IMG/VR virus record: IMGVR_UViG_3300037502_001755
Coordinates: 1-63,210 of that record
DNA: 63,210 nt
Source of the DNA: a virus
Reading direction: 5' to 3' (one strand)
Below, piece after piece: positions 14,416 to 29,497 of the stretch; position 1 is the first letter of the stretch, and each line of letters opens with the position of its first letter. The translations under genes were made by a program, and so were the position numbers. Below the pieces are notes generated by a model. That model saw nothing but the letters and a program-made list of their open reading frames with translations. It ran no database searches and was not told the origin of the DNA.

Positions 14416-14420
14416 AGACC

Positions 14421-14442
14421 AACCAAAATGTCGGCTTTGGTT
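14421..14442 (-). other. Stem-loop after small gene
   Basis: AACCAAA-N8-TTTGGTT arms five bases after a stop codon on the minus strand. There is no U tract on the minus strand, so this is a weak pause or processing hairpin at most. Confidence 0.3.
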
Positions 14443-14447
14443 GAAGC

Positions 14448-16372: not shown

Positions 16373-16373
16373 C

Positions 16374-16511
16374 TCAGTACCCCCAGCGAATACGAAAGCA
16401 CACCAGATACAGGTGCAGGACAAATTCGCTGCCACTACCGACGAACCCAATAGCGAAGCAGGGCCACTTGCGCGGCAAAAATTCGGTAGTCAGGTGTAGG
16501 CTCTTTCTCAT
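16374..16511 (-). CDS. 45-residue small protein
   Basis: MRKSLHLTTEFLPRKWPCFAIGF, a hydrophobic middle, and the end LVCFRIRWGY. Its start overlaps the previous stop by ATGA and its stop lies one base before the next start. It could be a small membrane-associated peptide. Function unknown. Confidence 0.5.
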   Translation of the reverse strand: MRKSLHLTTEFLPRKWPCFAIGFVGSGSEFVLHLYLVCFRIRWGY

Positions 16512-16993
16512 GCGTTTTTCTCCTTGAGCTTGGCTTCGATGGCGCGGGCAAAATCAAGCGTGCAGTCTTGCCAGTTAAGGTCGCCAAAACAACTCCCTTC
16601 ATTTCCTGTACTAGCGGTGTCCCAGACCTCCTCATCCGTCAGCCCCACCCACGGCTTGCTGATCGTGAAGTCTTTGCCCTCTTTCATGGCTGGCACTACA
16701 CCAATCTTCATCTCACCATCGGTCTTGTATGCGGCGTAGGTCTGGAACTTGTACTCGGCCATGACTGTCTCGGGCTCCTCCCGCTCAGGCTGTAGGCTGC
16801 CCTTTGCAGGCACAACTTCCAACTTGCTTTCCCCAGCCACGCACTGGGCCTCCTCCCGCGCCAGCCGCTCGCGCAGGGCGGTAGATGCCACGCATACCGG
16901 GCAATCGCAGTTGTGCGGCTTTCGAGGCTCAATACAGTCAGCGGCCCAGTCCAGCGCCTCCAGCGCCTGCTGCATTAACTCGCGGTCGTTCAT
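16508..16993 (-). CDS. Hypothetical protein with N-terminal Cys motif (161 aa)
   Basis: The N-terminal ~50 residues (MNDRELMQQALEALDWAADCI, then CDCPVC and TALRERLA) are a module repeated in many phage early proteins. The middle is beta-rich, and a C-terminal WVGLTDEEVWD segment is also commonly seen. It may be a fusion of two small phage modules. Coupled by ATGA on both sides. Confidence 0.6.
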   Translation of the reverse strand: MNDRELMQQALEALDWAADCIEPRKPHNCDCPVCVASTALRERLAREEAQCVAGESKLEVVPAKGSLQPEREEPETVMAEYKFQTYAAYKTDGEMKIGVVPAMKEGKDFTISKPWVGLTDEEVWDTASTGNEGSCFGDLNWQDCTLDFARAIEAKLKEKNA

Positions 16994-17181
16994 TTCACCC
17001 TCCGCATCGGCTCCCAGCGGCCTTCAGGAATCTTCTCGGGGGGTGGCGGGGTCATCGTGGCACTGGGTGGTGTCCACCCGTGCCTGCGCCACGTTGCCTG
17101 TACGTCAGCGCCTCGCGTTGGTTTGAAGCGCTCATTAAACACATGCACGCTCGGTTCTACTCGGGTCTGTTCTCGTTTCAT
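16990..17181 (-). CDS. Small basic protein (63 aa)
   Basis: MKREQTRVEPSVHVFNERFKP... with a central TWRRHGWTPPS and a proline-rich end. ATGA overlaps with both neighbours. No domain recognised. Confidence 0.5.
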   Translation of the reverse strand: MKREQTRVEPSVHVFNERFKPTRGADVQATWRRHGWTPPSATMTPPPPEKIPEGRWEPMRRVK

Positions 17182-18182
17182 TTTGTGTCTCCAAAAAACT
17201 TCTTGAGTTCATCGTAAAGCTGCTTGGCCTGCACCAACGTCAACTGGTTCAGGATGTCGTTGCCCGTGACCTGCGGCCTGACCGCAGGAGCAACCACCAC
17301 AGGCTCCTCCACCATCGTCACGGGGAGCGGCGCAGCCTCAACAGTATCCACCACTTGGGTTCGGCGAGTGTACGTGCGCTTGGGTGCGGCGACAGCCTTC
17401 TTGCGGGGCTTCGGTTTGTCCTCAATCAACATACGCTTGCCGTCGCGCATGACCATCCGAAGATGTGCGCGGGGCATCAACTCAGCCAGCTTCTTCGTCA
17501 CGACTGTCGAATAGGTCTTAAGCGGTGTGTACTCGGGAACCAGTGCACGCAGACAGTTGTAGTTGTCTCGGTGAAACATCTCCTGCTGCACCATCTGGCT
17601 GATCAGGGCGCTGACTGTCTTGCCGCTGAACCCCTTTGCCACAAGGTCGTTGGTGGCCTTTATACGGGAGATGCCGGGGTTGTCCCGCACGTAGTTGAAC
17701 GTCTCGCGGGTGACGTTGTTGGTGGGCTTGAACGCGCTAGAGGGCACGGGGTGGGTGGTCTGCGTAGGTTGCACGGAAGTCTCCTGTGGTTGCGTGGTCT
17801 GCGTGGTTTGGGGGGTGGTCTGATCGGGTTCGTCGTCCCACTCGGAGGGAACCGAGTTTGTGCGCTCAATGGCTTGTTTCAAAGCGTCTTGCAAAGAAGG
17901 CATGATGAATGTTCCTTTTTGGTTGGAGAGTTGCTCTTTGAGTTGCTTAATCCACTGCACGACTTCGCGTTTGTTGTAGTAAGGCGTGCGGTGGTTGTGG
18001 TAAACCCCTTGCACAGGCTTGGGGGCTCCGGGGTACTGCGCCGCCCAGCGACCGAACCATTGCGGCGATACACCCGCCGCTTCGCAGCACTCTTTCAGGG
18101 TGTGCAAAGGTTCGTGCCGCTTGCCTGATGCCTTATCTGCTTTGCGGCGGCGCATCATGTCGGAGAGTGTTTCGTATCTCAC
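17178..18182 (-). CDS. Putative DNA-binding protein with two HTH-like regions
   Basis: 334 residues. An N-terminal HTH (HTLKECCEAAGVSPQWFGRW, ~28-47) resembles MerR/excisionase-type DNA readers. A T/Q/P-rich linker (~120-150) follows, then a winged-helix-like segment (TFNYVRDNPGISRIKATNDL) and a basic KPKPRKKAVA region. The start is GTG at 18182 after AAAGGAAC. It could regulate the early arm and is a third candidate for binding the dyad family; not demonstrated. Confidence 0.5.
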   Translation of the reverse strand: MRYETLSDMMRRRKADKASGKRHEPLHTLKECCEAAGVSPQWFGRWAAQYPGAPKPVQGVYHNHRTPYYNKREVVQWIKQLKEQLSNQKGTFIMPSLQDALKQAIERTNSVPSEWDDEPDQTTPQTTQTTQPQETSVQPTQTTHPVPSSAFKPTNNVTRETFNYVRDNPGISRIKATNDLVAKGFSGKTVSALISQMVQQEMFHRDNYNCLRALVPEYTPLKTYSTVVTKKLAELMPRAHLRMVMRDGKRMLIEDKPKPRKKAVAAPKRTYTRRTQVVDTVEAAPLPVTMVEEPVVVAPAVRPQVTGNDILNQLTLVQAKQLYDELKKFFGDTK

Positions 18183-18197
18183 ATCGCGGTTCCTTTC

Positions 18198-19085
18198 TCA
18201 GAAAGAAAATTTGTCGAGGATGGCGTCCACGTTTTTCTTCACGTCGTCACGCACAGCCGCGTTCTTGCGCAGGTCGGCAGGGGTCACGCCGTTGAGAAGC
18301 TGCGACAGCGTCGAGCGCACGGACTCAAGCGCAGGGTCATTGGTCAGGTTCAACGCCTTGGTCATCTCGCACAACTCCAACGCGCCGTCAACCAGCGAGT
18401 CGAAGAACTTGCGCGGCTTAGCTTCCCCGGCCACGTAGTCGGTGGTCAGGCGGTCGGACATACGTGTGAGGTGGTCACCCAAGCGCTTGCGCACATCGGC
18501 GATGGCGTTCTCAACCCGCTCGTCTGCAAGTTGCTGGAGCTTGGCCTTGATGTCGTCCATGGCTGCGTTGCCCACGTCCACACGGAAGTCGCCAGCGGTG
18601 GGCACAGGCATGTAGTTCACCCGGAATGAGAACTTGGTCATGATCTCGTTCTGCGAGGGGTAGTCGTCGCGCCGGAACATATCGCCCAGTGCCAATGCTT
18701 GCGCCGTGATGAGCGAGGGGTAGATGGTCACGAAGCTGTGCACAAGGGCCTCGAACTCCTCCTCGAACTCGTTCATCTTGGATGCGAACTTCTCGAAGCT
18801 GCTGGTGGGCAACAGGCGCAGACCCGAGTCAGACCACGGCAGGGAGGTGTCGTACACGTATTGGCGTGCACGGGTGACCAGCTTCTGGATGACATCCAGT
18901 TCGTCGCGACCTGCCAGCAGGTGCTTGTTGACACGGGCTGCGTCCTTGGCCCCGGCCTTCTTGGCCGTGACGACCTCCTCGGTGGCGCTCTTGTCGAGTT
19001 TGCGGGCTGTCCAGACGGGAGCGTTGAACTCCACGAGCATGGCGCAGGTGTCGATGTTGTAACGGGCGTGGTTCAGTTGAGTCAT
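18198..19085 (-). CDS. DUF3150-like protein
   Basis: 295 residues, mostly helical, starting MTQLNHARYNIDTCAMLVEF after GGAGAACCAACATG. The LSxSG/WTARKLDK start and long helices resemble DUF3150, a family often encoded beside MoxR-like AAA+ ATPases and VWA proteins in phages. Here it follows exactly such a pair at 19120-21465. It may be the substrate adaptor or client of that ATPase. The family call is from memory. Confidence 0.65.
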   Translation of the reverse strand: MTQLNHARYNIDTCAMLVEFNAPVWTARKLDKSATEEVVTAKKAGAKDAARVNKHLLAGRDELDVIQKLVTRARQYVYDTSLPWSDSGLRLLPTSSFEKFASKMNEFEEEFEALVHSFVTIYPSLITAQALALGDMFRRDDYPSQNEIMTKFSFRVNYMPVPTAGDFRVDVGNAAMDDIKAKLQQLADERVENAIADVRKRLGDHLTRMSDRLTTDYVAGEAKPRKFFDSLVDGALELCEMTKALNLTNDPALESVRSTLSQLLNGVTPADLRKNAAVRDDVKKNVDAILDKFSF

Positions 19086-19119
19086 GTTGGTTCTCCTTGA
19101 ATGACGTTGAGTTGAAAAA

Positions 19120-20322
19120 TTAAGTGCGGATACGCACCACTTTGCCGCGTTGCGGCATGAAGTCGTCGTTGTTGACGACACCCCACAGCACAGGCAACTC
19201 GGGCAGCTTGTAGCTGTCCTCGATGTACCCGTCGGTCAGCATGATGACTGCCTTGGGTTTGTACTGTTTGTCTGCAATGTGCTGGGCAACACACGACACA
19301 GTCGTGCCCCCGCCACCCTTGGGCGACATGAGGTCGGACAGCTTGTCGTAGTCGTCGGGCTGGAACTGCTGGTCACCAGCCACCTCGGTGTCCCACCACA
19401 GCACACGCACGCTCTCGGGCCGAGCGTGCTGGCATACACGAGCGATCTCGCCGAACACCACCGGGTAGTGCGGATGCATGGAGCCAGAGGTGTCGCAAGC
19501 GATGATGATCTCGCCCACGCTTTCGTCGAAGTGCGACGGCATGAGAAAGCCCGATGCCATCAGGCGCTTGTTGGGAGGCGAGAAGCGGGAGTTCTCATCG
19601 CCCCGGCACATGGTGCTGATGAAGTCAATGAGCGGCTCTTTCCAGTTGGTGTCACGATCTTGCATCGTGCCGAAGATGTCGCCGCCATTGCTCTTGTCAC
19701 CGCGCAGCTTCTTGGACAGCAACTCGCCTTGGCGGTTGGCATCGTCGATCATCTTCTCCAGCGCCTCGCGCTCCTCGAAGGGCGTACCCTCGGGAGACAA
19801 CTCGTGCGTGTCCATAGGCTGGCCACGGCCGTCGCCACTGTCGGGCTGCTCGTCATTGTCCTTGGCCTCGTCGAGCAAAGCCTTGAGCACCTGCGGGAAA
19901 GACATCCCCTTGAACTTGTCGTCCACGAGCGGCTTGACCTTGGTCGGGCGCTCGACAAACTTGAAGTCAGGGTCAAGCGCCTCGATGGTGAGGTTGATGA
20001 CGTAGTCCGCAGCCATGTTGGCAAGTGCGCCGTGCTGCTTGAACAGGTCGCAGTAGAAGGGCAAGACGCAATGCTTGAACGCTACGTGGAAGTTCTCGTG
20101 CAGCACGAGGTAGCGCAACTGCTTGCGGTTGAAGTCGGTGGAGATGAACTCCGCGCCGTACAGCTTGTCCTTGCCGTTGGTGCACGCAGTAGGCAAGCCG
20201 GGCACGACCTCGGACTTGCCCATGGGGATCACGCCCGCAAGGCGGGCGAACTGGGGGTGGCGCATACAGTCGATGTTGACCGCTTGGATGCGCTGTGCGA
20301 GTGTGAGTTTGTCAAAGCTCAT
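19120..20322 (-). CDS. VWA-domain protein with N-terminal metallopeptidase-like domain (DUF2201)
   Basis: 400 residues. N-terminal zincin-like helix LHENFHVAFKH (HENFH at 75-79). An acidic hinge (~150-200) leads to a C-terminal von Willebrand A domain with an intact MIDAS: DTSGSM (~275), a GGGGTT threonine, and MLTDGYI. Proteins of this build (putative metallopeptidase + VWA) act with MoxR-type AAA+ ATPases, comparable to CobT/CobS or ViaA/RavA partners. Preceded by the shared RBS cassette GGAGAACCAACCATG, 18 bp after the ATPase gene. Confidence 0.8.
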   Translation of the reverse strand: MSFDKLTLAQRIQAVNIDCMRHPQFARLAGVIPMGKSEVVPGLPTACTNGKDKLYGAEFISTDFNRKQLRYLVLHENFHVAFKHCVLPFYCDLFKQHGALANMAADYVINLTIEALDPDFKFVERPTKVKPLVDDKFKGMSFPQVLKALLDEAKDNDEQPDSGDGRGQPMDTHELSPEGTPFEEREALEKMIDDANRQGELLSKKLRGDKSNGGDIFGTMQDRDTNWKEPLIDFISTMCRGDENSRFSPPNKRLMASGFLMPSHFDESVGEIIIACDTSGSMHPHYPVVFGEIARVCQHARPESVRVLWWDTEVAGDQQFQPDDYDKLSDLMSPKGGGGTTVSCVAQHIADKQYKPKAVIMLTDGYIEDSYKLPELPVLWGVVNNDDFMPQRGKVVRIRT

Positions 20323-20340
20323 GGTTGGTTCTCCTTGGAG

Positions 20341-21465
20341 TTACTTGGTGCTAAAGAAGATTTTGTGGGCCGCCAGCATCTTGCCGAAGTTGCCCAGCGT
20401 CACGTAGATGCCAGTGCGCGAGGACTGCGCCACCGAGTTGCAGAAGATCGACTGCACCTCGGCCTTCATGCGCCACACGTAGTCCACGATCTTCTCTGCG
20501 TCGTCGCGGTTGTCACAGCGAGATACGAACTGGAAGATTTGCACAAGCTGTGCGGTGGGGTTGTCGCTGATAGGTGCGGTGGCAGGGTCATGCAGCACGC
20601 GGTCATAGGCGCAGATGTCACGGCCAAAGCGAATGAACGCGGCAAGGTTGGCCGCAGTCACAGCACCGACAGTGCCGACCAGCGCAGCCTCGATGGTGTC
20701 GTCGTCCAGCACGTTCAAGCTCTCGTGCAGGATGTCAGAGGCGGCCACAAGGGAGCGAGGCGTAGCGTAGGCAAGGGTTGTAGCGCGGGGGCTGAAGATC
20801 ATGCCGTTGTCCTTGGATACGTCCTTGCCCTCGTGCTTGCCGCCCTTCTCGTAGTCAAGGAACGAGTCCATGACAGGCTCGTACTGGTCAACGAAGGCGA
20901 TCACCATCGGGTGCACACCAGCGTCCACGGCCCACGCTTTCCACTCCTGTGCGGTGGGCTTGCGCATCTTGACGAAGACGAGGCGGTTACGCAGGTGGGC
21001 CTGAATGCTGTCGCCCAGACCCTCGACCGCTAGGTTGGTCGCGCAGAACACGACGGAGCCCTCGGGCATATGGTAGTTGCCAACGCGCCGCTCGTAGATG
21101 ATCGGGGCCAGTACGTTCTTGATGAACTGCGGGGCCTTGGCGATCTCGTCGAGGAAGCACATGATCGGCTTGCTGTTGTTGACGCCAAGCTGGTTGTGCT
21201 TGCTGACACCGAAGCGCTCGTTGGGCAACTCGCGGGAGATGCCGTTCTCGCGGTCAAGGTCAGGCATCCACACCGAACCATCGGACAACTGCGTGCAGTC
21301 AATGGGGTCGACAGCGATGTGGTTGGCGAACTGGGGCATCCGCTTCAAGGCATGGAACAGCGCGGTCTTGCCGATGCCGTTCTCACCCTCGACGATGATG
21401 GTGCGCTTGTGCCCGACAGCAGCGATCAGGGACACGACTTGAGAGAAGGAAAGAAGTTTGGACAT
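20341..21465 (-). CDS. MoxR-type AAA+ ATPase
   Basis: 374 residues. Walker A GENGIGKT (27-34), Walker B CFLDEIAKAP (~102-111), sensor 1 FCATN and a second Arg-rich motif HLRNRLVF. This is the MoxR/CobS-like AAA+ layout that remodels partner proteins. It is the first gene of a three-gene set with the VWA-metallopeptidase and the DUF3150 protein. Its RBS (AACAACGGAGA) follows a promoter-like sequence and a dyad in the gap just upstream, so the set may be transcribed on its own. Confidence 0.8.
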   Translation of the reverse strand: MSKLLSFSQVVSLIAAVGHKRTIIVEGENGIGKTALFHALKRMPQFANHIAVDPIDCTQLSDGSVWMPDLDRENGISRELPNERFGVSKHNQLGVNNSKPIMCFLDEIAKAPQFIKNVLAPIIYERRVGNYHMPEGSVVFCATNLAVEGLGDSIQAHLRNRLVFVKMRKPTAQEWKAWAVDAGVHPMVIAFVDQYEPVMDSFLDYEKGGKHEGKDVSKDNGMIFSPRATTLAYATPRSLVAASDILHESLNVLDDDTIEAALVGTVGAVTAANLAAFIRFGRDICAYDRVLHDPATAPISDNPTAQLVQIFQFVSRCDNRDDAEKIVDYVWRMKAEVQSIFCNSVAQSSRTGIYVTLGNFGKMLAAHKIFFSTK

Positions 21466-21506
21466 GGTTGATTTCTCCGTTGTTGAAAAGTGATTTTTGT
21501 TGGAAC

Positions 21507-21527
21507 TCGCGGACGTTTTGTCCGCGA
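21507..21527. promoter_or_regulatory. Dyad copy 1 (GCGGAC-N5-GTCCGC)
   Basis: TCGCGGAC-GTTTT-GTCCGCGA, 8-bp perfect arms. It lies from about +3 to +23 of the predicted minus-strand transcript for the ATPase cassette, where a repressor or an RNA hairpin would act. Member of a six-copy family. Confidence 0.6.
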
Positions 21528-21536
21528 CCTAGATGC

Positions 21537-21565
21537 AGTATAGCAATGTGTCTAGCGTTGGACAA
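21537..21565 (-). promoter_or_regulatory. Minus-strand sigma70-like promoter for the ATPase cassette
   Basis: TTGTCC (21565-21560), 17-bp spacer, TATACT (21542-21537): 4/6 and 5/6 matches with ideal spacing. It lies in the gap after the 324-residue gene and just before dyad copy 1. Confidence 0.5.
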
Positions 21566-21571
21566 CTCCTT

Positions 21572-22546
21572 TCATTTGTTGGGATGTTGGGTGGTGATGT
21601 TGCTGCGCACAATGTCACCATTGCTGGGGAACTGTGGGTATTCGATGTACCCAGAGGTACTACTCAGACGGGTGGAGTTCTTGAGTTTGCTCCACAACGA
21701 GTTGATGAGAGTCTTCTCGTCGATGGGCTCGATGTCGCTGTAGCGGGCGTTGCTTATGTTCCTGTAGCTGATCAGCCCCGCAGCGAATGCGCGGTTGCTG
21801 GCGATCTTGTCAAAGCAAAGCTGGGCCTGCTCCATGAGGGTGTCCAGCGCTGCTTGCGGTGGGGGCAGGTCTTTCTCCAGCGCGTGCACGAGTTCCATGG
21901 AGTGCCTGTGCCACATGGACGCTTCCTCCACAGCGTTGAACACACCGGCCATGTAGAAGTCGAACTTCACGTCGGCTGCGAACTCGGGTATACGCATGGC
22001 AATGAGGGTGAGCATCCCATCGAGCGCGGCCTTGACCTTCTTGCGCGCCGCCTTGTCTGCGTCGCTGCTGACCTTGCGGAAGATGCGCGTGTGCCGTGAG
22101 CGCTCCACTATGAGCTTGCCAGACGGCGCGAACCACAGGTCAGTGGAGAAGTCCTCACCGGGCAGGGGCCGTGTGGACACCGGGGCCACCACTGTGCGCT
22201 CGTCAGTTGTCGTGCGTCGGTTGAGCCACTCGATGTTGGCCACGTCGCGCAGGAAGCCCTGCGAGGTCTGCGAGTAGTGGTTGATGTACTGACGGCGCTC
22301 GTTACCCTCAGCGTCGGGCTTGTGGAGGCGGGCCAGCGTGGTCTGGTACAGCACGAGGTCGTAGTAGGAGTCGTCGCCCGTGACCGAGCGCTCGATGCGG
22401 TAGTGGTGGCTGCGGGTGTCCTTGAGCGGGCGTTGAGACGCGTGCCACTTCTTGCTGCGAGGCGGCAGCTTGGTGCGCTCGAAGTAGTCGTGCGCCTTCT
22501 TGTAGCTGGACAGAAGCGGTAGAAGGTAGGTTTTACCTGAGTACAT
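21572..22546 (-). CDS. Hypothetical phage protein (324 aa)
   Basis: Largely helical. The N-terminus (SSYKKAHDYFERTKLPPRSKKW) is basic, and the middle carries a WFAPSGKLIVERSRHTRIF strand pair. I know of no function. It has the GGAGAACCAACCATG cassette and lies between a small gene and the promoter of the ATPase cassette, so it may belong functionally with that set. Confidence 0.65.
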   Translation of the reverse strand: MYSGKTYLLPLLSSYKKAHDYFERTKLPPRSKKWHASQRPLKDTRSHHYRIERSVTGDDSYYDLVLYQTTLARLHKPDAEGNERRQYINHYSQTSQGFLRDVANIEWLNRRTTTDERTVVAPVSTRPLPGEDFSTDLWFAPSGKLIVERSRHTRIFRKVSSDADKAARKKVKAALDGMLTLIAMRIPEFAADVKFDFYMAGVFNAVEEASMWHRHSMELVHALEKDLPPPQAALDTLMEQAQLCFDKIASNRAFAAGLISYRNISNARYSDIEPIDEKTLINSLWSKLKNSTRLSSTSGYIEYPQFPSNGDIVRSNITTQHPNK

Positions 22547-22584
22547 GGTTGGTTCTCCTTGGGTTGGTGGTTGGTGGTTGTGGA

Positions 22585-22857
22585 TTAGATTTCGGTCTTG
22601 TTGTTACGCATGGCGATGAGCACGCGGTACTTGTCCAGCGCCTCGTCGGGGACAATCTTCACGCCTTGCGTGTGGGTGGCGGCATCGAAGGGCATGAAGC
22701 TGATGTCGTACTCCTGATTGCGCCCGTAAAAGCCATTGTTGTTGCCCCGGTACGTGGTCTCCATGGCCTCGCAGCCCGAGAGGAGTTTGTGCAGCTTTTC
22801 TATCTGCGCGGGGGAGAGCAGCAACTGCGTGCCGCCAATGTCGATCAAAAGTTTCAT
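22585..22857 (-). CDS. Hypothetical protein (90 aa)
   Basis: Starts MKLLIDIGGTQLLLSPAQIEK after a GGAG RBS that lies within the end of the preceding small gene. Mixed alpha/beta, with DISFMPFD and a basic C-terminus. The start at 22857 is chosen over longer readings because those would pass through dyad copy 2 and the small gene upstream. Function unknown. Confidence 0.6.
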   Translation of the reverse strand: MKLLIDIGGTQLLLSPAQIEKLHKLLSGCEAMETTYRGNNNGFYGRNQEYDISFMPFDAATHTQGVKIVPDEALDKYRVLIAMRNNKTEI

Positions 22858-22859
22858 GG

Positions 22860-23021
22860 TCAGGGTCTCCAAACAAAAACGTCCAACAGGACGACGATGA
22901 CAGCGGCTACGCAAACTACAGGGTAGAAACTCGCGGACAAACTGTCCGCAAGCCGTTGCCGCCACGAATACAGCCGAATCGGCTGGGGGAGAGAGGACTG
23001 ATGAATGTTCCTCTTGGGCAT
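22860..23021 (-). CDS. 53-residue membrane protein containing dyad copy 2
   Basis: MPKRNIHQSSLPQPIRLYSW then a transmembrane stretch (VVCVAAVIVVLLDVFVW). A GGAGTAACC RBS precedes the ATG and the stop lies 2 bp before the next gene. Codons of LADSLSAS coincide with the dyad at 22933. A GTCC-N4-GGAC hairpin with a T-rich 3' side near the end of the gene looks terminator-like but is coding. Confidence 0.5.
   Translation of the reverse strand: MPKRNIHQSSLPQPIRLYSWRQRLADSLSASFYPVVCVAAVIVVLLDVFVWRP
22933..22949. repeat. Dyad copy 2 (GCGGAC-N5-GTCCGC)
   Basis: GCGGACAAACTGTCCGC, inside the small membrane-protein gene. Read on the minus strand it encodes LADSLSAS, the same register as copy 6. Confidence 0.55.
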
Positions 23022-23023
23022 GG

Positions 23024-23344
23024 TTACTCCTTCAGTTCGTCAGGCACATCCACCTCAACATCGGGACTATTCAACATGACGTAGTACCGCATCGCCGCAA
23101 CAAGCGGCGTAGGGCCATGCATCTCGACAGGACGCGGGCCAGCGGCCCACCCATTTACTTCGTGATCCCCCAGCGGGTACAGCGCGATACCCTCCCGCTC
23201 AATGATCGGCCCACCCACCAGCCAGTTTGTGGAGTAGCTCGTGATGTATTGCGGGTAGATGGTGAACAGCTTTCGCTCAGCCTCCAACTTCGTCACCACC
23301 CAATCCAGCGCGGCCCCGGTCAGTTCAGATGTTTTCAGTTTCAT
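23024..23344 (-). CDS. DUF2591-like phage protein
   Basis: 106 residues. KTSELTGAALDWVVTKLEAE at the N-terminus, then STNWLVGGPIIEREGI and GPTPLVAAMRYYVM: the motif order I associate with DUF2591, a phage/prophage family of unknown function. RBS GGAGAAAGCAACC precedes the ATG, after the intergenic UUCG hairpin. Confidence 0.7.
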   Translation of the reverse strand: MKLKTSELTGAALDWVVTKLEAERKLFTIYPQYITSYSTNWLVGGPIIEREGIALYPLGDHEVNGWAAGPRPVEMHGPTPLVAAMRYYVMLNSPDVEVDVPDELKE

Positions 23345-23364
23345 GGTTGCTTTCTCCTAGTTGT

Positions 23365-23380
23365 GGGGGCCGAAGCCCCC
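23365..23380 (-). other. Intergenic cUUCGg stem-loop
   Basis: On the minus strand GGGGGC-TTCG-GCCCCC, a six-pair stem closed by the exceptionally stable UUCG tetraloop. It sits between the stop of the 221-residue gene and the RBS of the DUF2591-like gene. No U tract follows, so it is more likely an mRNA stabiliser or processing boundary than a terminator. Confidence 0.5.
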
Positions 23381-23385
23381 GGTTG

Positions 23386-24051
23386 TTAAACGACGTTGTT
23401 GTTCAGCGCCTTCTTGAGGGCAGGCAGCAGGTAATCGCCGAGGTTGTCTTTGTTCAGGAAGTCGTTGGTCTCGGTGAACTGGTCGACGATGTGCTCGATG
23501 TCGCCCTCGTCATGGTGCTCGGTGTCGTTCGTGTGGTTCTCGATGGCGTCGCTGATCATCTCCTCGATGCGGCGCTCGGTCAGGTCGTTCCCACGCAGGG
23601 CCTCGGTCACCTTGTCGTCGATGTAGTCGTCGTTGAAGTGCTCCTCGTTGCGCTCGTGGTTGTATATCTTCTCGTCGGCAACCTCCTCGGCGATCTCCGA
23701 TGCGATCTCCCGCATCTTCTGCTCGATGTCCGAGTCCAGCTTGGTCAGCGTCATGTTGTTGTCCACCATCGCTGCGAACTTGGCCTCCACCATGTGCTCA
23801 AGGTGCGGCTTGATGTACAGCAGCGCAGCGCTGAACAGGCTGTCGAACTTGGACAGCACGTCTGTCCACTCAGGGGTGGGAGCGGGAGCGGGAGCGGGAG
23901 CGGGAGCGGGAGCCGGGGTGGGCGCAGGGCTGGGAATCTCCGGGTTGACCGAGGGTTCGGGCACGATGAAGGCTGCCTCCATCAGGTTGATGATCTGCGC
24001 CGGGTCGGTGATGGCGGTGTAGCCATTGGCGTTTGGGTTGGTGTTTTCCAT
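23386..24051 (-). CDS. Acidic protein with Pro-Ala repeat linker
   Basis: 221 residues. A short N-terminal helix, then a Pro-Ala linker from a tandem hexanucleotide (23878-23913), then a strongly acidic helical C-terminus (EEVADEKIYNHERNEEHFND...). A long H/E/D-rich helix may mimic nucleic acid or bind metal. Uses the GGAGAAACCAACCATG cassette. No family recognised. Confidence 0.6.
   Translation of the reverse strand: MENTNPNANGYTAITDPAQIINLMEAAFIVPEPSVNPEIPSPAPTPAPAPAPAPAPAPTPEWTDVLSKFDSLFSAALLYIKPHLEHMVEAKFAAMVDNNMTLTKLDSDIEQKMREIASEIAEEVADEKIYNHERNEEHFNDDYIDDKVTEALRGNDLTERRIEEMISDAIENHTNDTEHHDEGDIEHIVDQFTETNDFLNKDNLGDYLLPALKKALNNNVV
23878..23913. repeat. Six tandem copies of GGGAGC
   Basis: A hexanucleotide microsatellite that encodes the Pro-Ala linker on the minus strand. 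Copy number could change by slippage without shifting frame. Confidence 0.85.
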
Positions 24052-24075
24052 GGTTGGTTTCTCCTAAACAAGTTG

Positions 24076-24092
24076 CCCCGTGACCGACGGGG
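24076..24092 (-). other. GC hairpin upstream of 23386-24051 gene
   Basis: CCCCG-N7-CGGGG arms next to dyad copy 3, in the leader of the Pro-Ala gene. Only a short weak T run follows on the minus strand, so terminator activity is doubtful. Confidence 0.35.
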
Positions 24093-24101
24093 TGGCGGCT
24101 T

Positions 24102-24118
24102 GCGGACAAGTTGTCCGC
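24102..24118. promoter_or_regulatory. Dyad copy 3 (GCGGAC-N5-GTCCGC)
   Basis: GCGGACAAGTTGTCCGC, an 8-bp dyad about a single central base. Non-coding, 20 bp after the stop of the upstream gene. The flanks (TTGCGGAC..., ...GTCCGCGAGTT) match copies 4 and 5. Confidence 0.6.
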
Positions 24119-24138
24119 GAGTTCTGGTTGTGTGGGTG

Positions 24139-25131
24139 TCAGGGGTTGTCCCACCAGTTGTCCGTGGTCTCGGGCGCTGGCTGTGTGGGTGGTGTGTCGG
24201 GTGGTGTGTCAGGTGGTGTGGGTGTTGTGTCGGGTTCGTCGACCACGAGGAAGAACCCCTTGCGCCCCTTTGTGCCTGACTTCTCCCACAACAAGGGGAT
24301 GCGGCTGCGGTAGCCGGGCTCCATCCACTGGCCTCGGGCGTGCTGGGCCTTGAGTTGCGCCCGCTCGTCGTCCGTGAGGAGGTGATGCCACATGGCCTCG
24401 GCCACAGGTATGTCCTTCATTTTCTGGGCCAGCGTGCCATCCTCGATATACGCATCAAGGCGGCTGCGCGCCTTGTGCAGCAACGCTCGGCGGTCGAGGT
24501 AGTACGCCAGACTATCGTCGTCCATCTTGGATATCCTGTCCCCATCAGCGTCGATGAAGGCGAGGTTCTTCTTGAGCACCTTGGCCACAGTCTCCAGCGA
24601 GGTGGTGATGCTGGCTTTGAGCGCGCTGACCAGCGTGGGGGCCATGCGTTTACCCGCCTTGCGCTTGGTGCGCCGCGCGAGGGAGAGTCGGCACACGTCG
24701 CACAGGTTGCTCGTGACGTAGTGCTGCGCGTCGGGGTTGCGCCCCATGCGTTTCTTCTGGGCGACTGTGGCAAGGGTGCGGAACACGGACAGGTGCTTCT
24801 CCTCGTAGCACGCCTTGCACACCTTGTTGTCAGGGTTCAGGGATTTTGGAAGCGGGCGCTTCTTGCCTGCCGGAGCCAACCAGCCGTGCGTCTGCGCCGC
24901 CTTGACCAGCAGCTTGTGCACTTTGTCGCCACGGAACTCGCGCACATCCCGCTCGTGGGCCAAGAGGTGCACTGCGGCCAGCGTGTCAGCGAAGGATTTG
25001 TAGCGCGGCGTGTCGGGCGAACCTGTCAGTCCTTTCTTAAGTTCCGCTTCTATTCGTATCAACGACCACGCCATGGCAAGCGCCCATGGGCGCGGCTTGA
25101 ATTCGGGATACGTGAGTTTTTGCTCGGTCAT
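24139..25131 (-). CDS. Hypothetical protein with paired CxxC motifs (330 aa)
   Basis: CKACYEEKHLSVF and NLCDVCRLSLARR form a likely zinc-binding pair in the first half. They are followed by a basic segment (RRTKRKAGKR), a helical middle and a Pro/Thr-rich tail ending in NWWDNP. A DNA-binding role is plausible. The ATG at 25131 has an AAGGAG RBS. It is the first gene after the AT-rich island. Confidence 0.55.
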   Translation of the reverse strand: MTEQKLTYPEFKPRPWALAMAWSLIRIEAELKKGLTGSPDTPRYKSFADTLAAVHLLAHERDVREFRGDKVHKLLVKAAQTHGWLAPAGKKRPLPKSLNPDNKVCKACYEEKHLSVFRTLATVAQKKRMGRNPDAQHYVTSNLCDVCRLSLARRTKRKAGKRMAPTLVSALKASITTSLETVAKVLKKNLAFIDADGDRISKMDDDSLAYYLDRRALLHKARSRLDAYIEDGTLAQKMKDIPVAEAMWHHLLTDDERAQLKAQHARGQWMEPGYRSRIPLLWEKSGTKGRKGFFLVVDEPDTTPTPPDTPPDTPPTQPAPETTDNWWDNP

Positions 25132-25194
25132 ACAGGGCTCCTTGGTTGATTCGACACGAATAGTACCCGAACAAGTACCAATGCGTCCAGTTGC

Positions 25195-25255
25195 GTCCAC
25201 ACCATACCCACCAATTCCGAGGCTAGGCGTCGGCTTGGAACCCGCATGGATGCTG
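25195..25255 (+). repeat. Long inverted repeat, left copy
   Basis: Reads GTCC....CATACCCACC AATTCCGAGGCTAGGCGT and ends AACCCGCATGGAT. The copy at 25438-25498 matches its reverse complement at roughly 78% over 49 bp. Differences are scattered single bases, so the repeats are old or under selection. Confidence 0.7.
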
Positions 25256-25380
25256 GGCGCGCAAGGTTTTGACACCAATAAGAGGGCTTTTGCGCAACAA
25301 CACACACGGGAAAGCCGTGTAGGAGAATCGCCCCATCAACCACACGAATATGTGCTCATACAAATATTTACTCCACCATC

Positions 25381-25420
25381 TATATATATAAGTATTTCTA
25401 AAAATATATATATATGTGTG
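25381..25420. other. AT-rich tract
   Basis: About 40 bases composed almost entirely of A and T (alternating TA with short A and T runs). It is centred between the two long inverted repeats and is the most AT-rich stretch I notice in the window. Candidate DNA unwinding element. Confidence 0.6.
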
Positions 25421-25437
25421 TCGAAAGTGGACGGAGC

Positions 25438-25498
25438 GAGGATTCATGCGGGTTGCGGGGCTACGCTTAGCTTCGGAATTAGTGGGTATGCGCAGGAC
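25438..25498 (-). repeat. Long inverted repeat, right copy
   Basis: The inverted partner of 25195-25255. Its reverse complement reads CATACCCACTAATTCCGA then AGCTAAGCGT and AACCCGCATG. Dyad copy 4 follows 24 bp later. Confidence 0.7.
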
Positions 25499-25521
25499 AG
25501 TGAAGTTCTCACAAAGAAGTT

Positions 25522-25538
25522 GCGGACAAGTTGTCCGC
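25522..25538. promoter_or_regulatory. Dyad copy 4 (GCGGAC-N5-GTCCGC)
   Basis: GCGGACAAGTTGTCCGC, identical to copies 3 and 5 over 17 bp. It begins three bases after the stop codon of the 69-residue gene and borders the AT-rich island. Confidence 0.6.
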
Positions 25539-25541
25539 GAG

Positions 25542-25751
25542 TCAGCGAAAGAGTTTGCCCTGCTTGAGAGGGCGCACGGACTGCGTGTAGTCCAGCCACT
25601 CGTTGTCTCGGGCCTTGGCCTCGTCGAGGATGCGGCGCTTGTGGGCGTTGTCTGCTTGGATGCGGACGTAGTCCTCGCGTAGCTCTTTGAGGCGGGCAAG
25701 CGAGGCGCTTTTGATGGTGCTGTGGATGGCGTAGCGGTTGGTCTTGGACAT
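25542..25751 (-). CDS. Small helical protein (69 aa)
   Basis: MSKTNRYAIHSTIKSASLAR then a long amphipathic helix (LKELREDYVRIQADNAHKRR). Likely a coiled-coil dimer. Uses the GGAGAACCAACCATG cassette. Function unknown. Confidence 0.55.
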   Translation of the reverse strand: MSKTNRYAIHSTIKSASLARLKELREDYVRIQADNAHKRRILDEAKARDNEWLDYTQSVRPLKQGKLFR

Positions 25752-25766
25752 GGTTGGTTCTCCGGG

Positions 25767-25835
25767 TTAGATGAAGAAGACGGACAGGGTGAGGACGAGC
25801 CAGATGAGGCAGGCGAAGGCGGCGATGGTTTTCAT
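25767..25835 (-). CDS. 22-residue hydrophobic peptide
   Basis: MKTIAAFACLIWLVLTLSVFFI: a single membrane span. The ATG overlaps the previous stop (ATGA), supporting real translation despite the size. Possibly a membrane peptide acting with the preceding two-pass protein. Confidence 0.4.
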   Translation of the reverse strand: MKTIAAFACLIWLVLTLSVFFI

Positions 25836-25996
25836 GCTGCCCCCTTGAGGCTTGCGAGGGACAGTGTGACTGTCGCCGTGCCCCACACGACAGCGCCGAG
25901 GTAAATCCACATACCCTGTGGGATGAGTGCTGTCAGGCCAAGGATTAGCCCGGCAGTGCCGAGGATTGCGGTGATGCAAAGATACAGGTTACGCAT
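25832..25996 (-). CDS. Two-pass small membrane protein (54 aa)
   Basis: MRNLYLCITAILGTAGLILG and WIYLGAVVWGTATVTLSLA form two hydrophobic helices. RBS GGAGTAACC. An early-arm membrane protein; a superinfection-exclusion role is possible but unproven. Confidence 0.5.
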   Translation of the reverse strand: MRNLYLCITAILGTAGLILGLTALIPQGMWIYLGAVVWGTATVTLSLASLKGAA

Positions 25997-26010
25997 GGTG
26001 GTTACTCCGG

Positions 26011-26181
26011 TTAGAAGGGAAGAAGTTGGGTCTTGGTCAGCACCACGCACCAGCCTTCGGTGGCTGCGGTGGCCCGAGCGTGAGTCTCGGCATCCCTCGG
26101 GGTGAGGGCGTGCACATCGGTGCGGACGACGAACTCACGCCCGTTGTCCCAGACTTGCAGGAAGACGCGATAGGTTTTCAT
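26011..26181 (-). CDS. Small soluble protein (56 aa)
   Basis: MKTYRVFLQVWDNGREFVVR then LTPRDAETHARATAATEGW: a small alpha/beta protein with a strand-strand-helix pattern. GGAGC RBS. Function unknown. Confidence 0.5.
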   Translation of the reverse strand: MKTYRVFLQVWDNGREFVVRTDVHALTPRDAETHARATAATEGWCVVLTKTQLLPF

Positions 26182-26191
26182 GGGTAGCTCC

Positions 26192-26356
26192 TTAGAAGTT
26201 GGGGTTGTAGCGTTGCATGAGGGTTGCGCCGTCCCACATCTCGACAGGGAAGCCGAGCTTGGTTAGGGCGGCGAACAGCACGATGGCATCGCCTTGGCTC
26301 TGGCACTCGTAGGTGCGGTCGGTGAACATATGGCGCAGGATGATGGTGGGTTTCAT
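26192..26356 (-). CDS. Small protein (54 aa)
   Basis: MKPTIILRHMFTDRTYECQS..., with a helix AIVLFAALTKLGFPVEMW. Start chosen at the ATG after AAAGGAG; the longer reading would run through dyad copy 5. Function unknown. Confidence 0.5.
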   Translation of the reverse strand: MKPTIILRHMFTDRTYECQSQGDAIVLFAALTKLGFPVEMWDGATLMQRYNPNF

Positions 26357-26425
26357 GGGTGGCTCCTTTGGACAAGAAACGAAACAGCGGCCGGGCCTCG
26401 CAGCCACGACCGCCGGGGAAAACTC

Positions 26426-26442
26426 GCGGACAAGTTGTCCGC
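26426..26442. promoter_or_regulatory. Dyad copy 5 (GCGGAC-N5-GTCCGC)
   Basis: GCGGACAAGTTGTCCGC between the first and second early genes, about 25 bp after the stop codon. In opposite orientation to copies 3 and 4 as judged by the asymmetric flanks. Confidence 0.6.
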
Positions 26443-26467
26443 AAGTCGTTGGTGAGAAGTACAAGGC

Positions 26468-26866
26468 TTAGGCGATCTTGGCCTTGAACGAGCGCTTCTC
26501 AGCAGCGCTCAGCTTCTCGAATGCAGCCACCAGCTTCTCCACGGCTGACTGCGCGTGCTTGCGACCAGTGGCTTTGGGCAAGTCCGCGCTGGGGTAGCAG
26601 ATAGCCAGCACGCGATTGACGGCACGCTCGGCTGCGCTGTCGCGTCGTGTGTAGGTGAGGCCGCGCTGACCCTGCTTGAGGCCCGTGTCCGCGTACTTGG
26701 CGATAGCCCAGGCCATCGCGTAGGGCCGTGCCTCCGCACGGCTGGCCAGCCCCGCCTTCAGTAAGGCGTCAGCGAAACTGGCGGACGATCCGTCCGCAAG
26801 ATCGAACGTGGGTGCAGAGGCGGCGAGGACGGCAGGGTTGATGCCGAGCAGTTTGTTGATGTGCAT
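26468..26866 (-). CDS. First gene of the leftward early operon (132 aa)
   Basis: Starts MHINKLLGINPAVLAASAPT after GGAGAACCAACCATG. The C-terminal half is lysine/alanine-rich and helical (EKLSAAEKRSFKAKIA), suggesting nucleic-acid binding. As the promoter-proximal early gene it is a good candidate for a host-takeover or regulatory factor, but no family is recognised. Dyad copy 6 lies inside it, coding LADGSSAS. Confidence 0.6.
   Translation of the reverse strand: MHINKLLGINPAVLAASAPTFDLADGSSASFADALLKAGLASRAEARPYAMAWAIAKYADTGLKQGQRGLTYTRRDSAAERAVNRVLAICYPSADLPKATGRKHAQSAVEKLVAAFEKLSAAEKRSFKAKIA
26781..26797. repeat. Dyad copy 6 (GCGGAC-N5-GTCCGC)
   Basis: GCGGACGATCCGTCCGC inside the first early gene. 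The inner 6-bp arms are conserved and the first base pair of the centre changed from A-T to G-C, keeping the dyad. Confidence 0.5.
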
Positions 26867-26877
26867 GGTTGGTTCTC

Positions 26878-26904
26878 CAAAAGAAAACCCGGCAACTGGC
26901 CGGG
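26878..26904 (-). terminator. Leader intrinsic terminator (attenuator candidate)
   Basis: On the minus strand CCCGGC-N5-GCCGGG followed by TTTTCTTTT, ending right at the GGAGAA RBS of the first early gene. A terminator in this place would stop early transcription unless anti-terminated or unless translation starts. Confidence 0.65.
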
Positions 26905-26940
26905 CGACAGATCGGCGAGACAACCCCAACCGATGCCTCT

Positions 26941-26950
26941 AGTATACCAC
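26941..26950 (-). promoter_or_regulatory. Extended -10 promoter near first early gene
   Basis: TGGTATACT on the minus strand (TATACT at 26946-26941). It has a poor -35 but a TGn extension. It is bracketed by ACAACCCC (26920-26927) and its inverted copy GGGGTTGT (26977-26984), which could be an operator pair. Confidence 0.4.
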
Positions 26951-27124
26951 AGTGGCTTTCAGAGAACCCTTGACATGGGGTTGTTTTGGCTAGGCGACGA
27001 CCCCACCGGTGGGTGGGAACCCCTTTTTGGCGGTGGGGCTGCGATACGGCAAGAACACTAATCCTCAACCACACACCACATTTTGTAAAACCCGAGACAT
27101 CGCAGCAAAATCCCAGACAACACT

Positions 27125-27146
27125 GTGTAGCACAAATTAGCTACAC
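27125..27146. promoter_or_regulatory. Operator-like inverted repeat GTGTAGC-N8-GCTACAC
   Basis: Perfect 7-bp arms about 40-60 bp downstream of the main early promoter start on the minus strand. Different in sequence from the GCGGAC dyads. Confidence 0.45.
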
Positions 27147-27184
27147 TTCTATCCGCAGCCCAACACACCGGCCCCCAAAAATTT

Positions 27185-27213
27185 TTTAAAAAATTTGGAA
27201 AAACCCGTGTCAA
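27185..27213 (-). promoter_or_regulatory. Main leftward early promoter
   Basis: On the minus strand TTGACA (27213-27208), 17-bp spacer, TTTAAA (27190-27185), with an A/T-rich spacer and downstream region. A perfect -35 and ideal spacing make it the best sigma70-type promoter I found. It lies just downstream of a minus-strand terminator that would shield it. Confidence 0.6.
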
Positions 27214-27223
27214 ACAGCGCCAA

Positions 27224-27296
27224 GAAAAAAGCCCCCGGGGTGAGCCGGGGGCCAAGAACAACGGAGATAGCAAGACGACCCCTTGCAAGGCCGCCG
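27224..27296 (-). ncRNA. Candidate ~73-nt minus-strand RNA with intrinsic terminator
   Basis: A promoter-like TTGTAA-N17-TACACT (27331-27303) would start a transcript near 27296. It would end at a GCCCCCGG-N6-CCGGGGGC hairpin and T6 (27252-27225). The RNA includes the CCTTGCAAGG palindrome and the segment TCTCCGTTGTT. That segment is an exact 11-nt complement of the ribosome-binding site before the MoxR gene (AACAACGGAGA). No reading frame of note. Inference only. Confidence 0.35.
27225..27252 (-). terminator. Intrinsic terminator in control region
   Basis: Eight-pair GC stem (GCCCCCGG/CCGGGGGC) with a six-base loop and T6 on the minus strand. It would end any leftward transcript that starts in the late-gene side before it reaches the early promoter. 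Confidence 0.7.
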
Positions 27297-27312
27297 TGTA
27301 ACAGTGTACATT
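27283..27312 (+). promoter_or_regulatory. Candidate late promoter before terminase
   Basis: TTGCAA-N18-TACATT on the plus strand, 45 bp before the terminase start. Four-of-six matches in each box. The -35 is inside the CCTTGCAAGG palindrome (27281-27290). Confidence 0.35.
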
Positions 27313-27356
27313 CCGCTCAACGAGGTTACAAGGCATACCGCCTACCTACGCGATAA

Positions 27357-27965
27357 ATGCTGGAACACTTGGTGCACTTTAATCCGGAAGTATCACCGCC
27401 CGGAAACTACACGCCCCTCGACGAAGTGGGGCCGGACGACCTGTTGGCGGCCAAAGTAGCCACCACGAGTTGGCTCGAAGAGATCGGCGCACCGCCGGAC
27501 GACGAAATCGAGGCTGAGGTTGAGAAGGCCCACGCCAGAAAAGCCTTCGGTGCGCTGTCTGTAAATGTGGATTCGTTGGAAGCGAAAGCGGCCATCGCCG
27601 CCCTGAAAACCCCCGAGGCTGTGCGCCACCTGACTGGCATGCTGTCCGCATACGACTGGGAGTTCATCGAGCAGGCCAAGGAACTGCGCGGGTACACGGT
27701 GGCCAAGTTGGTCGAGGAGACGACCAATACCAACGCCAACATCCGCCTCAAAGCGCTGGCCCTGCTGGGCAAAGTCACGGAGGTCGGGCTCTTTACGGAA
27801 AAGATTGAAGTGAAGAACGCCCCGGCATCGGATGCCGAGCTGGACGCCCGGATCAAGGAGAAGTTGGGCAAGTTCATGGGCGTGGTGGATGTCATGGACA
27901 TCAGTAAGCAGGAAGCGCAGGACATCGTCCTCTCGGAAATCCCCGATGAGGGCTCCAAAGAGTGA
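27357..27965 (+). CDS. Terminase small subunit
   Basis: 202 residues, mainly helical. An acidic N-terminus is followed by a helical DNA-recognition-type middle (EFIEQAKELRGYTVAKLVEE, then a KALALLGKV helix) and a C-terminal acidic helix. It is placed directly before the large terminase with a GTG/TGA overlap, the standard arrangement. The start has no clear Shine-Dalgarno, so the N-terminus is uncertain. Confidence 0.75.
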   Translation: MLEHLVHFNPEVSPPGNYTPLDEVGPDDLLAAKVATTSWLEEIGAPPDDEIEAEVEKAHARKAFGALSVNVDSLEAKAAIAALKTPEAVRHLTGMLSAYDWEFIEQAKELRGYTVAKLVEETTNTNANIRLKALALLGKVTEVGLFTEKIEVKNAPASDAELDARIKEKLGKFMGVVDVMDISKQEAQDIVLSEIPDEGSKE

Positions 27966-29497
27966 CCAGCCTGACCAAGCTGGAGCTTGAAGCCTTGCAA
28001 AAGGCCCTGCCGCATATGAATGCGCAGGAGAAGGCTGAACTGCTCCAAGACTTGGAAGAGCGCGAGAGACGAACACGCCTTGCGGCGGCCAACGACAACA
28101 TGCTGGGCTTTGCCAAGGCGGTGTACCCGGGCTTTAAGGTCGGCCCCCACCACAAGAAGCTGGCAAAAATCTTCACGGACGTGATCGAGGGCAAGAAAAA
28201 GCGGGTGATCATCAACATCGCGCCGCGTATGGGCAAGTCCGAATTCAGCTCCTACCTGTTCCCCGCCTATTTTCTAGGTAAATACCCTAATAAGAAGATC
28301 ATCATGGGCACGCACACCGCGAGCCTGTCCGAGGACTTTGGCCGAAGAATACGAAATTTAATTGATAGTGAAGAGTACAGGGAAATCTTCCCTGCCACAG
28401 TCGTGGCGGACGACCAGAAAGCTGCGGGCAAGTGGAGTACTAGTGTAGGCGGGCAGTATTACGCCGCAGGCGTAGGCGGTGCCCTAGCAGGACGCGGTGC
28501 AGACTTGTTCGTCATCGATGACCCCCATTCAGAACAAGATGTGAAGGTCAACTCGCGCCTGTCTTTCGACACCGCATGGTCGTGGTTCCAGACGGGGCCC
28601 TTGCAGCGTCTGATGCCGGGCGGCGCGATCATTATCATCATGACGCGCTGGTCCCTCTTGGACCTCACAGGGCGGCTGATCGACTACCAGATCAAGAATC
28701 CGGAGAGTATTCCGTGGGAGATCGTGGAGCTGCCAGCAATTCTTGAATCTGCAAGCGATGATGGCACCACCATCGAGAAAAGCCTGTGGCCAGAGCAGTG
28801 GCCCATCGAGTCTCTCAAAGCCACCCGCGCATCGCTGGACCCCCGGTACTGGAACGCCCAGTACATGCAGCAGCCGACCTCCGAGAGCAGCGCTTTGGTG
28901 AGCAGGAAGTCGTGGCGCATCTGGGACAGGGAAGACCCGCCGCCGTGCGACTACGTGATCCAGTCATGGGACACGGCGTTCGAAGCCAAAACCAGCGCTG
29001 ACTACAGCGCCTGTACAACGTGGGGCGTTTGGTACAACGAGGAGGAGGGCAACAGCCCCCAGCTAATCCTGTTGGACGCGTTTAAGGCCCGGATGACGTT
29101 CCCGGAGCTTAAAGAGGTGGCGCTTAAGCACTACAAGGAGTGGACGCCAGATGCGTTCATTGTGGAAAAGAAGGCCGCCGGTGCGCCGCTGATCCAAGAG
29201 CTGCGCCAGATGGGCATCCCCGTTCAAGAATTTACGCCCAGTCGGGGAAATGACAAAATGGTGCGCCTGAACGCCGTGGCAGACTTGTTCTCCTCCGGCA
29301 AAGTGTGGGCACCGGACACGCGCTGGGCGCGTGAAGTGATCGAGGAGGTGGCGGCGTTTCCTGTGGGTGAGCACGACGACTACGTGGACACGACAACGCA
29401 GGCGCTGCTGCGCTACCGGCAGGGCGGGTTTATCAGTTTGGATACCGATGAGCCCGAGGATCGTCTCTTTCAGCGCCGCCGGGCGGCGTACTACTGA
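27962..29497 (+). CDS. terL: Terminase large subunit
   Basis: 511 residues. ATPase: Walker A-like APRMGKSE (~87-94) and Walker B LFVIDDPHS (~182-190), coupling motif IIIIMTRWS. RNase H-like nuclease: SWDTAFEAK, VEKKAAG and HDDYVDT carry the acidic metal ligands. Start codon is GTG overlapping the previous stop. Drives headful-type DNA packaging into the prohead through the portal. Confidence 0.93.
   Translation: MTSLTKLELEALQKALPHMNAQEKAELLQDLEERERRTRLAAANDNMLGFAKAVYPGFKVGPHHKKLAKIFTDVIEGKKKRVIINIAPRMGKSEFSSYLFPAYFLGKYPNKKIIMGTHTASLSEDFGRRIRNLIDSEEYREIFPATVVADDQKAAGKWSTSVGGQYYAAGVGGALAGRGADLFVIDDPHSEQDVKVNSRLSFDTAWSWFQTGPLQRLMPGGAIIIIMTRWSLLDLTGRLIDYQIKNPESIPWEIVELPAILESASDDGTTIEKSLWPEQWPIESLKATRASLDPRYWNAQYMQQPTSESSALVSRKSWRIWDREDPPPCDYVIQSWDTAFEAKTSADYSACTTWGVWYNEEEGNSPQLILLDAFKARMTFPELKEVALKHYKEWTPDAFIVEKKAAGAPLIQELRQMGIPVQEFTPSRGNDKMVRLNAVADLFSSGKVWAPDTRWAREVIEEVAAFPVGEHDDYVDTTTQALLRYRQGGFISLDTDEPEDRLFQRRRAAYY

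Follow-up and report, generated by a model that had tools for sequence, protein, structure and literature searches.

The viral DNA analysed here, a stretch of 63,210 nt (IMG/VR record IMGVR_UViG_3300037502_001755, positions 1 to 63,210; hereafter the window), carries six copies of the dyad GCGGAC-N5-GTCCGC within the first 5.3 kb of its leftward early operon. The system is common to about 100 relatives, each phage with a private dyad set, and sequence comparison points to the fast-diversifying product of the first early gene as the likely dyad-binding partner. The dyads are best explained by an early regulator that binds DNA, controls its own gene, and diversifies together with a scattered set of operators; this is, in our judgment, probably the correct explanation. 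The original prediction, made from the window alone, had described the six copies; the sequence differences between relatives and the first early gene as a likely partner had escaped it.

A repeated dyad in the early region

All six exact copies lie between 21509 and 26797, with starts at 21509, 22933, 24102, 25522, 26426, and 26781. The claim of a six-copy dyad in the early arm was borne out, as the chance expectation for the exact dyad in the whole window is 0.02 and six copies were reached in 0 of 100 shuffles; the first start, previously given as 21507, is corrected to 21509. No further exact copy occurs anywhere in the window. The motif is not equally dense in the late arm, where exact copies are absent and the sole copy with one mismatch is found at 43177. 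In agreement with the original prediction, three of the dyads are identical over 17 bp, with both orientations present as judged by their flanks, and four of the six are intergenic, 4 to 47 nt past minus-strand stop codons. The remaining two lie within open reading frames (ORFs), 26781 in a 132-aa gene and 22933 in a putative ORF of 53 codons.

Following the operon leftward, dyad GCGGACGATCCGTCCGC (26781..26797; no strand is assigned to the dyads) sits in the 5' part of the first early gene, its centre at about +77 from the ATG. The sequence GCGGACAAGTTGTCCGC then occurs three times: at 26426..26442, 26 nt past the stop of the same gene; at 25522..25538, 4 nt past the stop of gene 25542-25751; and at 24102..24118, 21 nt past the stop of gene 24139-25131, with a terminator-like hairpin directly after it (24076..24092, minus strand; consensus match only). 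Dyad GCGGACAAACTGTCCGC (22933..22949), within the putative ORF, is followed 40 nt further on by a terminator-like hairpin and U tract (22880..22893, minus strand), again a consensus match only. The last dyad, GCGGACGTTTTGTCCGC (21509..21525), lies before a MoxR-like gene, where it covers about +6 to +22 of a promoter predicted on the minus strand (-10 TATACT, 21537..21542, minus strand); the original prediction had given the span as about +3 to +23.

The putative ORF that holds dyad 22933 (22860-23021, minus strand) would encode a membrane-protein-like product and has a good ribosome-binding site. Its codons across the dyad read LADSLSASF, close to the LADGSSASF read across the dyad within the first early gene.

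Related phages carry private dyads at shared positions

Scanning viral contigs, once with a pattern and twice with proteins, gathered about 100 related contigs of freshwater viruses, with TerL mostly 69-90% identical; megablast revealed no near relatives of the window among 50,697 phage records. Nearly all relatives carry 2-7 copies of their own dyad in the same early region, and contigs without the GCGGAC dyad have a differing dyad of like build there. More than 20 dyad sequences were found, each class-specific and most on a GGACA-N3-TGTCC theme, including CAGGTGCA-N3-TGCACCTG in contig L061, ACAGACA in L060, GTGGGACA in L070 and L075, and, elsewhere, GGGGAG, GGGGAA, GGGTCA, GGGGTA, GTGTCA, GTTGACA, and others. 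De novo clustering recovered a repeated dyad at 104 loci (394 dyads, 337 distinct). The early cluster is the commonest palindrome of the entire contig in nearly all of the 20 contigs examined whole, and the top palindrome had 3-7 exact copies in 11 of 11 contigs tested, compared with 1-3 at most in randomised sequence.

Comparison of the relatives disclosed that orthologous site positions can be kept while the sequence is switched. The position of dyad 26781 is common to GCGGAC-class relatives, and over 30 relatives, drawn from several dyad classes, have a counterpart of dyad 26426 at 0-26 nt past the same stop. Past the stop of gene 25542, a site lies 4-16 nt downstream in phages with GCGGACA, CAGGTGCA, and GTGAGACA dyads, the counterpart of dyad 25522 being CAGGTGCA-type in L061 and GTGAGACA-type in L081. 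Before the MoxR block, a dyad 22-23 bp downstream of TATACT has a GCGGAC core in the window and L023 and a GTTGAC core in L126; the TATACT-dyad layout of L079 is similar, with another core. An association of dyads with promoters was sought generally, and this was the only conserved position found.

A mobile palindromic repeat spreading within each genome, one of the alternatives offered by the original prediction, would suit copies that are repeated, mostly intergenic, and in both orientations. The preservation of orthologous positions under replaced sequence argues against such a repeat, as do flanks that are unshared beyond the dyad and a constant half-site spacing, and we consider it extremely improbable.

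Near 7477 (late genes forward), L062/L040 combines with its four GCGGACA dyads a single dyad of GCTGACA type, which matches the L063 dyad exactly. This mosaic is possibly a recombinant caught between two dyad classes.

The dyads as DNA sites

The class spacing was held in 271 of 278 arm pairs when any gap of 0-15 was allowed, and the centre of the dyad is free to vary. Symmetry reaches about ±13 bp, with flank asymmetry in both orientations. Among one-mismatch copies, the mismatched pair on the mRNA strand was A-C in 50 cases and G-U in 21, counts that indicate an absence of G-U preference, not a strong opposite preference, as related copies are non-independent; the flanking pairs lean the same way. 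An mRNA stem would favour G-U, and the excess of A-C over G-U therefore makes an RNA hairpin unlikely. In GGGTCA and some GGGGTA phages, moreover, the dyad nearest the promoter precedes the putative -10 and would therefore be absent from that promoter's transcript. In L009 (TerL about 46%), two GCGGACA dyads, at 3934 and 4495, are placed exactly between -35 TTGCAC and -10 TATAAT. Each of these two dyad promoters is followed by a second palindrome, of GCARCA type.

These data bear directly on whether the dyads act as intrinsic terminators or as mRNA-processing stem-loops at gene ends. Five of the six window copies fold well (z about -3 to -6), many dyads lie just past stop codons, and a T tract (at least five T in the 8 positions past the arm) follows 62 of 254 dyads on the mRNA strand versus 28 of 254 on the other. 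The T tract is, however, missing from most dyads and wholly absent in several dyad classes, so that the dyads do not conform to the GC hairpin plus U tract of an intrinsic terminator, and no Rfam match was found in window positions 14000-28500. Arms identical within a genome that switch together between genomes, the near-invariant loop length, the mismatch pattern, and copies upstream of a promoter or within genes all speak against a stem-loop role, which we regard as very unlikely. On the lack of G-U preference, the fixed spacing, and the free centre, the RNA-hairpin reading was rejected, and the RNA-processing alternative of the original prediction is disfavoured together with the mobile repeat.

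The first early gene as candidate regulator

The first early gene (26468..26866, minus strand; 132 aa) encodes the candidate dyad-binding regulator. In nearly all classes this gene is bracketed by dyads, one 0-26 nt past its end and another near its promoter, leader, or 5' end. In the window its predicted promoter has a TG-N extended -10 TATACT (26941..26946, minus strand), and a TGTGGTATAATAGAGG-type promoter is conserved in relatives. At about 26905-26946, the early promoter TGTGGTATAATAGAGGCATCGGTTNGG and a leader inverted repeat, ATCGG...CCGAT, are conserved before the first early gene in many relatives.

First-gene products are 120-155 aa long with a net charge mostly of +2 to +12. The window protein comprises a variable N-terminal domain (about 1-92), a linker, and a swappable C-terminal helical module (108-131). 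The first-gene product had no Pfam or PHROG match, its profile found no sequence relative in the PDB, and the window protein had no tblastn match in the 50,697 phage records, where the L050 protein matches only three 65,014-bp records resembling Synechococcus phage MinM2, through its C-terminal module. An AlphaFold2 model of the window protein (pLDDT 85) and that of a second class predict the same succession of three helices, a beta hairpin, one more helix, the linker, and a helical pair. The highest-ranking Foldseek hits of the window model are MarR/ArsR-type winged-helix repressors, but with E about 1, and the second-family model did not give this pattern; the best VIA-align Z for the regulator fold was 3.

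The N-terminal domain covaries with dyad class, its families mapping onto the classes. Over 78 non-redundant loci, the partial Mantel correlation between dyad and N-domain given TerL and TerS was 0.31 (p 0.001, the floor of 999 permutations), while that for TerL given the N-domain was 0.01 and not significant; the C-terminal part contributed 0.08. Individual comparisons illustrate the same trend. L061 differs from the window in its dyads and shares only 37% identity in the first gene, in spite of 89% in TerL and 80% in the MoxR protein, whereas L005 has the same dyads with 83% identity in TerL and 54% in the first gene. In L078, L080, and L081 (TerL 86-89%), the dyads are different and a homologue of the window protein could not be recognised. 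The C-terminal module is exchanged, as 53 pairs are alike in the N-terminal part and not in the C-terminal part. Class A takes in the GCGGACA, GCTGACA, CAGGTGCA, and ACAGACA dyads. Profile comparison joins the N-domains of classes A, D, and F, with those of B and C remaining separate; the A1 versus A3 comparison was set aside since the alignments share members, and an independent comparison was used.

Alternatively, a host protein or another phage DNA-binding protein could read the dyads, with the covariation of the first gene reflecting linkage. The neighbouring TerS also correlates with dyad class, and universal helix-turn-helix (HTH) proteins, encoded at 6148 and 17178, are present. The N-domain signal nevertheless persists once TerL and TerS are controlled for and is stronger than the TerS signal, even MinM2 has dyads on either side of its first early gene, and we find a different reader quite unlikely. 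The HTH binders named by the original prediction (6148, 14866, and 17178) were each rejected as dyad reader on covariation: the recognition helix of the Cro-like 6148 protein is almost invariant across dyad classes and so cannot be a variable reader, 17178 is divergent and has no dyad-class signature, and 14866 had no BLAST match in 20 relatives.

Proposed mode of action

A dimer of the small basic first-gene protein would bind the dyads symmetrically as DNA operators, its N-terminal domain reading the half-sites and its class-independent C-terminal module serving, for example, in dimerisation or RNA polymerase contact. Autoregulation would come from one or two operators located at the promoter, leader, or 5' end of the regulator gene itself. 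At operators past stop codons, the bound protein may act on elongating or initiating polymerase within the initial 5-8 kb of the early genes; the simplest action would be a block, in a stoperator-like shut-down of early transcription. Regulator and operator set would then co-diversify, giving a private code per phage type.

Several observations weigh against this regulator. Most dyads lie outside recognisable promoters, the N-domains of classes B and C have no detectable relation to class A, and fold comparison gave no DNA-binding protein as a confident match. TerS, a neighbouring late gene, keeps a correlation of 0.22 with dyad class after control (p 0.001, at the same permutation floor), so that linkage supplies part of the dyad-class signal. 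The data show the sites with their statistics and spacing, their placement and in-place switching in relatives, their match to the N-terminal domain, and the recurrence in MinM2; that the first-gene product binds the dyads, acts as a dimer, and represses, and that phage types exclude one another, is inferred.

The hairpins that follow the first-gene dyad and some others also leave room for antitermination, in which the first-gene product would load or modify polymerase at the dyads and read through the following hairpins, like lambda N (at RNA) or Q (at DNA). In lambda, N/nut and Q antitermination pairs a small basic protein from a first early gene with cognate sites that are specific to the phage, those of N being RNA hairpins with a specific loop. 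The first early gene product here is likewise small and basic, and its swapping C-module would suit a polymerase-contact module. A GC-rich, terminator-like hairpin with a U-rich tail lies after the window's first gene and its dyad (26387..26407, minus strand). Such a hairpin is present in most classes; it has a counterpart at the sites of 67 relatives, with a mean z of -2.5 versus -0.55 at other dyads, both against plain base shuffles. Terminator-like hairpins within 70 nt are about three times commoner downstream of dyads than upstream (47 of 288 versus 14 of 288), but the same count leaves most dyads without one, and in the comparison with Q the hairpins follow the first-gene dyad and few others. 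An RNA site of the N type, a hairpin tolerant of G-U with a specific loop, is disfavoured by the fixed spacing, the variable centre, and A-C over G-U, which indicate double-stranded DNA. Operators near or upstream of the promoter suit autoregulation better, and roadblock repression is preferred because dyads also occur at promoters, leaders, and the regulator's own 5' end. We consider antitermination unlikely.

The hairpin after the first gene is followed by TGTTTCNTTTC...TGTC(C/A)AA, and across about 67 relatives its structure is kept while its sequence varies.

Lysogeny and phage types

Dispersed, class-specific sites resemble the stoperators of Cluster A mycobacteriophages (PMC6550527) and the types of plasmid centromeres, and could serve temperate immunity or phage-plasmid partition. 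In 15 contigs, several of them partial, there was no match to integrase, resolvase, or ParA (PF00589, PF00239, PF13614), and the ParA-type ATPase that accompanies ParABS sites was thus missing from the contigs searched. Among 84,980 species genomes, a TerL scan turned up only five contigs, all from metagenome-assembled genomes, and no relative clearly residing as a prophage or in a host chromosome. A role in lysogenic immunity is accordingly unsupported, and lysogeny or partition sites seem highly improbable. Of the original prediction's reading, the dimeric operators in a stoperator-like layout are upheld by spacing, lack of G-U preference, in-place switching, and the tracking of the dyads by the protein, while its temperate-phage analogy is not supported.

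The phages could form an apparently non-lysogenic clade with immunity-like types of modular early regulator, in which N-domains, several of them without detectable sequence relationship, are exchanged or diverge along with all of their operators across the genome, co-infecting relatives of the same type would shut off each other's early genes, and other types would escape. We consider this extension possible but doubtful.

Recurrence in Synechococcus phage MinM2

The layout recurs independently in Synechococcus phage MinM2, a cultured cyanophage with TerL at 48%. Exact copies of GGTTCA-N3-TGAACC number 21 in its genome. Of these, 13 fall between genes, although the annotation counts 92% of the genome as coding; several are 0-4 nt past stop codons, and some belong to the late operon. 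Copies of the dyad flank the first early gene, MM2_92, one of them with one mismatch. When a C-terminal-module profile was run against the 870 MinM2 ORF segments, MM2_92 stood out with E 1.7e-8, the next best being 1.2. No repeated dyad was seen in HTVC027P, 023Pt_psg01, or DSL-LC04 within the stretches examined.

The cyanophage records OQ594354, OL906435, and PP438419 come from different hosts. All three are 65,014 bp long and agree exactly in the statistics of their TerL match; they may be one phage.

Comparison with known systems

The repressor of phiC31, a temperate Streptomyces phage, recognises conserved inverted repeats of about 17 bp dispersed in early intergenic regions. The dyads here are alike in length, symmetry, and dispersal; the protein is unrelated as far as known, and we know of no set of at least 20 switched specificities in the phiC31 system.

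In Cluster A mycobacteriophages (L5, TipsytheTRex), which carry integrase or parABS, stoperators are 13-bp asymmetric sites, monomer-bound and mostly in one orientation (PMC6550527, PMC9283540). Both systems have many sites per genome in short early intergenic stretches, a motif and binding protein that diverge together, and an autoregulatory site beside the regulator gene. By contrast, the dyads here are symmetric, with fixed half-site spacing and flank asymmetry in both orientations, and the protein comes from the first early gene, with no family match detected. By analogy, the system may be described as stoperator-like in layout, but with symmetric sites and in phages in which no lysogeny genes were found.

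Cluster K mycobacteriophages possess start-associated sequences and extended inverted repeats (PMC3203893). These are also phage-specific repeats with inverted 17-bp parts beside a subset of genes, but they go with translation starts and an asymmetric sequence of 13 bp, and they have variable spacers and cluster-wide conservation instead of switching. In the lytic phage T7, the small DNA-binding regulator Gp5.7 represses early promoters of the host polymerase (PMC5569994), without dispersed operators or type switching.

A specificity used at five or more sites should be hard to change, since the protein and all sites must change together. More than 20 solutions are nevertheless found among phages with terminases mostly 69-90% identical, some with sites in place and the sequence replaced, making regulator-operator co-evolution directly testable with natural intermediates. 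If the proposed regulator is real, these phages would hold a family of orthogonal small regulators without known relatives and a stoperator-like control in phages without lysogeny genes. The presence of the system in cultured MinM2 opens it to bench work.

Genome context

Early genes run leftward from about 27 kb and include DNA polymerase A, a SNF2-type helicase, a PD-(D/E)XK nuclease, a MoxR-like ATPase (named from tblastn hits; without a Pfam match), a VWA/metallopeptidase protein, and a DUF3150 protein. Terminase, portal, and head genes run rightward from 27.4 kb. The block at 18198-21465, comprising the MoxR-like ATPase, VWA/metallopeptidase (DUF2201), and DUF3150 genes, is kept as far as MinM2, in variable order.

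Upstream of this block, over the -35 region, lies the box TTGTCAAACANTNGACA (TGTC-N9-GACA; window 21543-21575, minus strand). It is near-constant across dyad classes (window, L023, L061, L079, and L126) and could serve as operator for a regulator that is itself conserved, for example the Cro-like 6148 protein.

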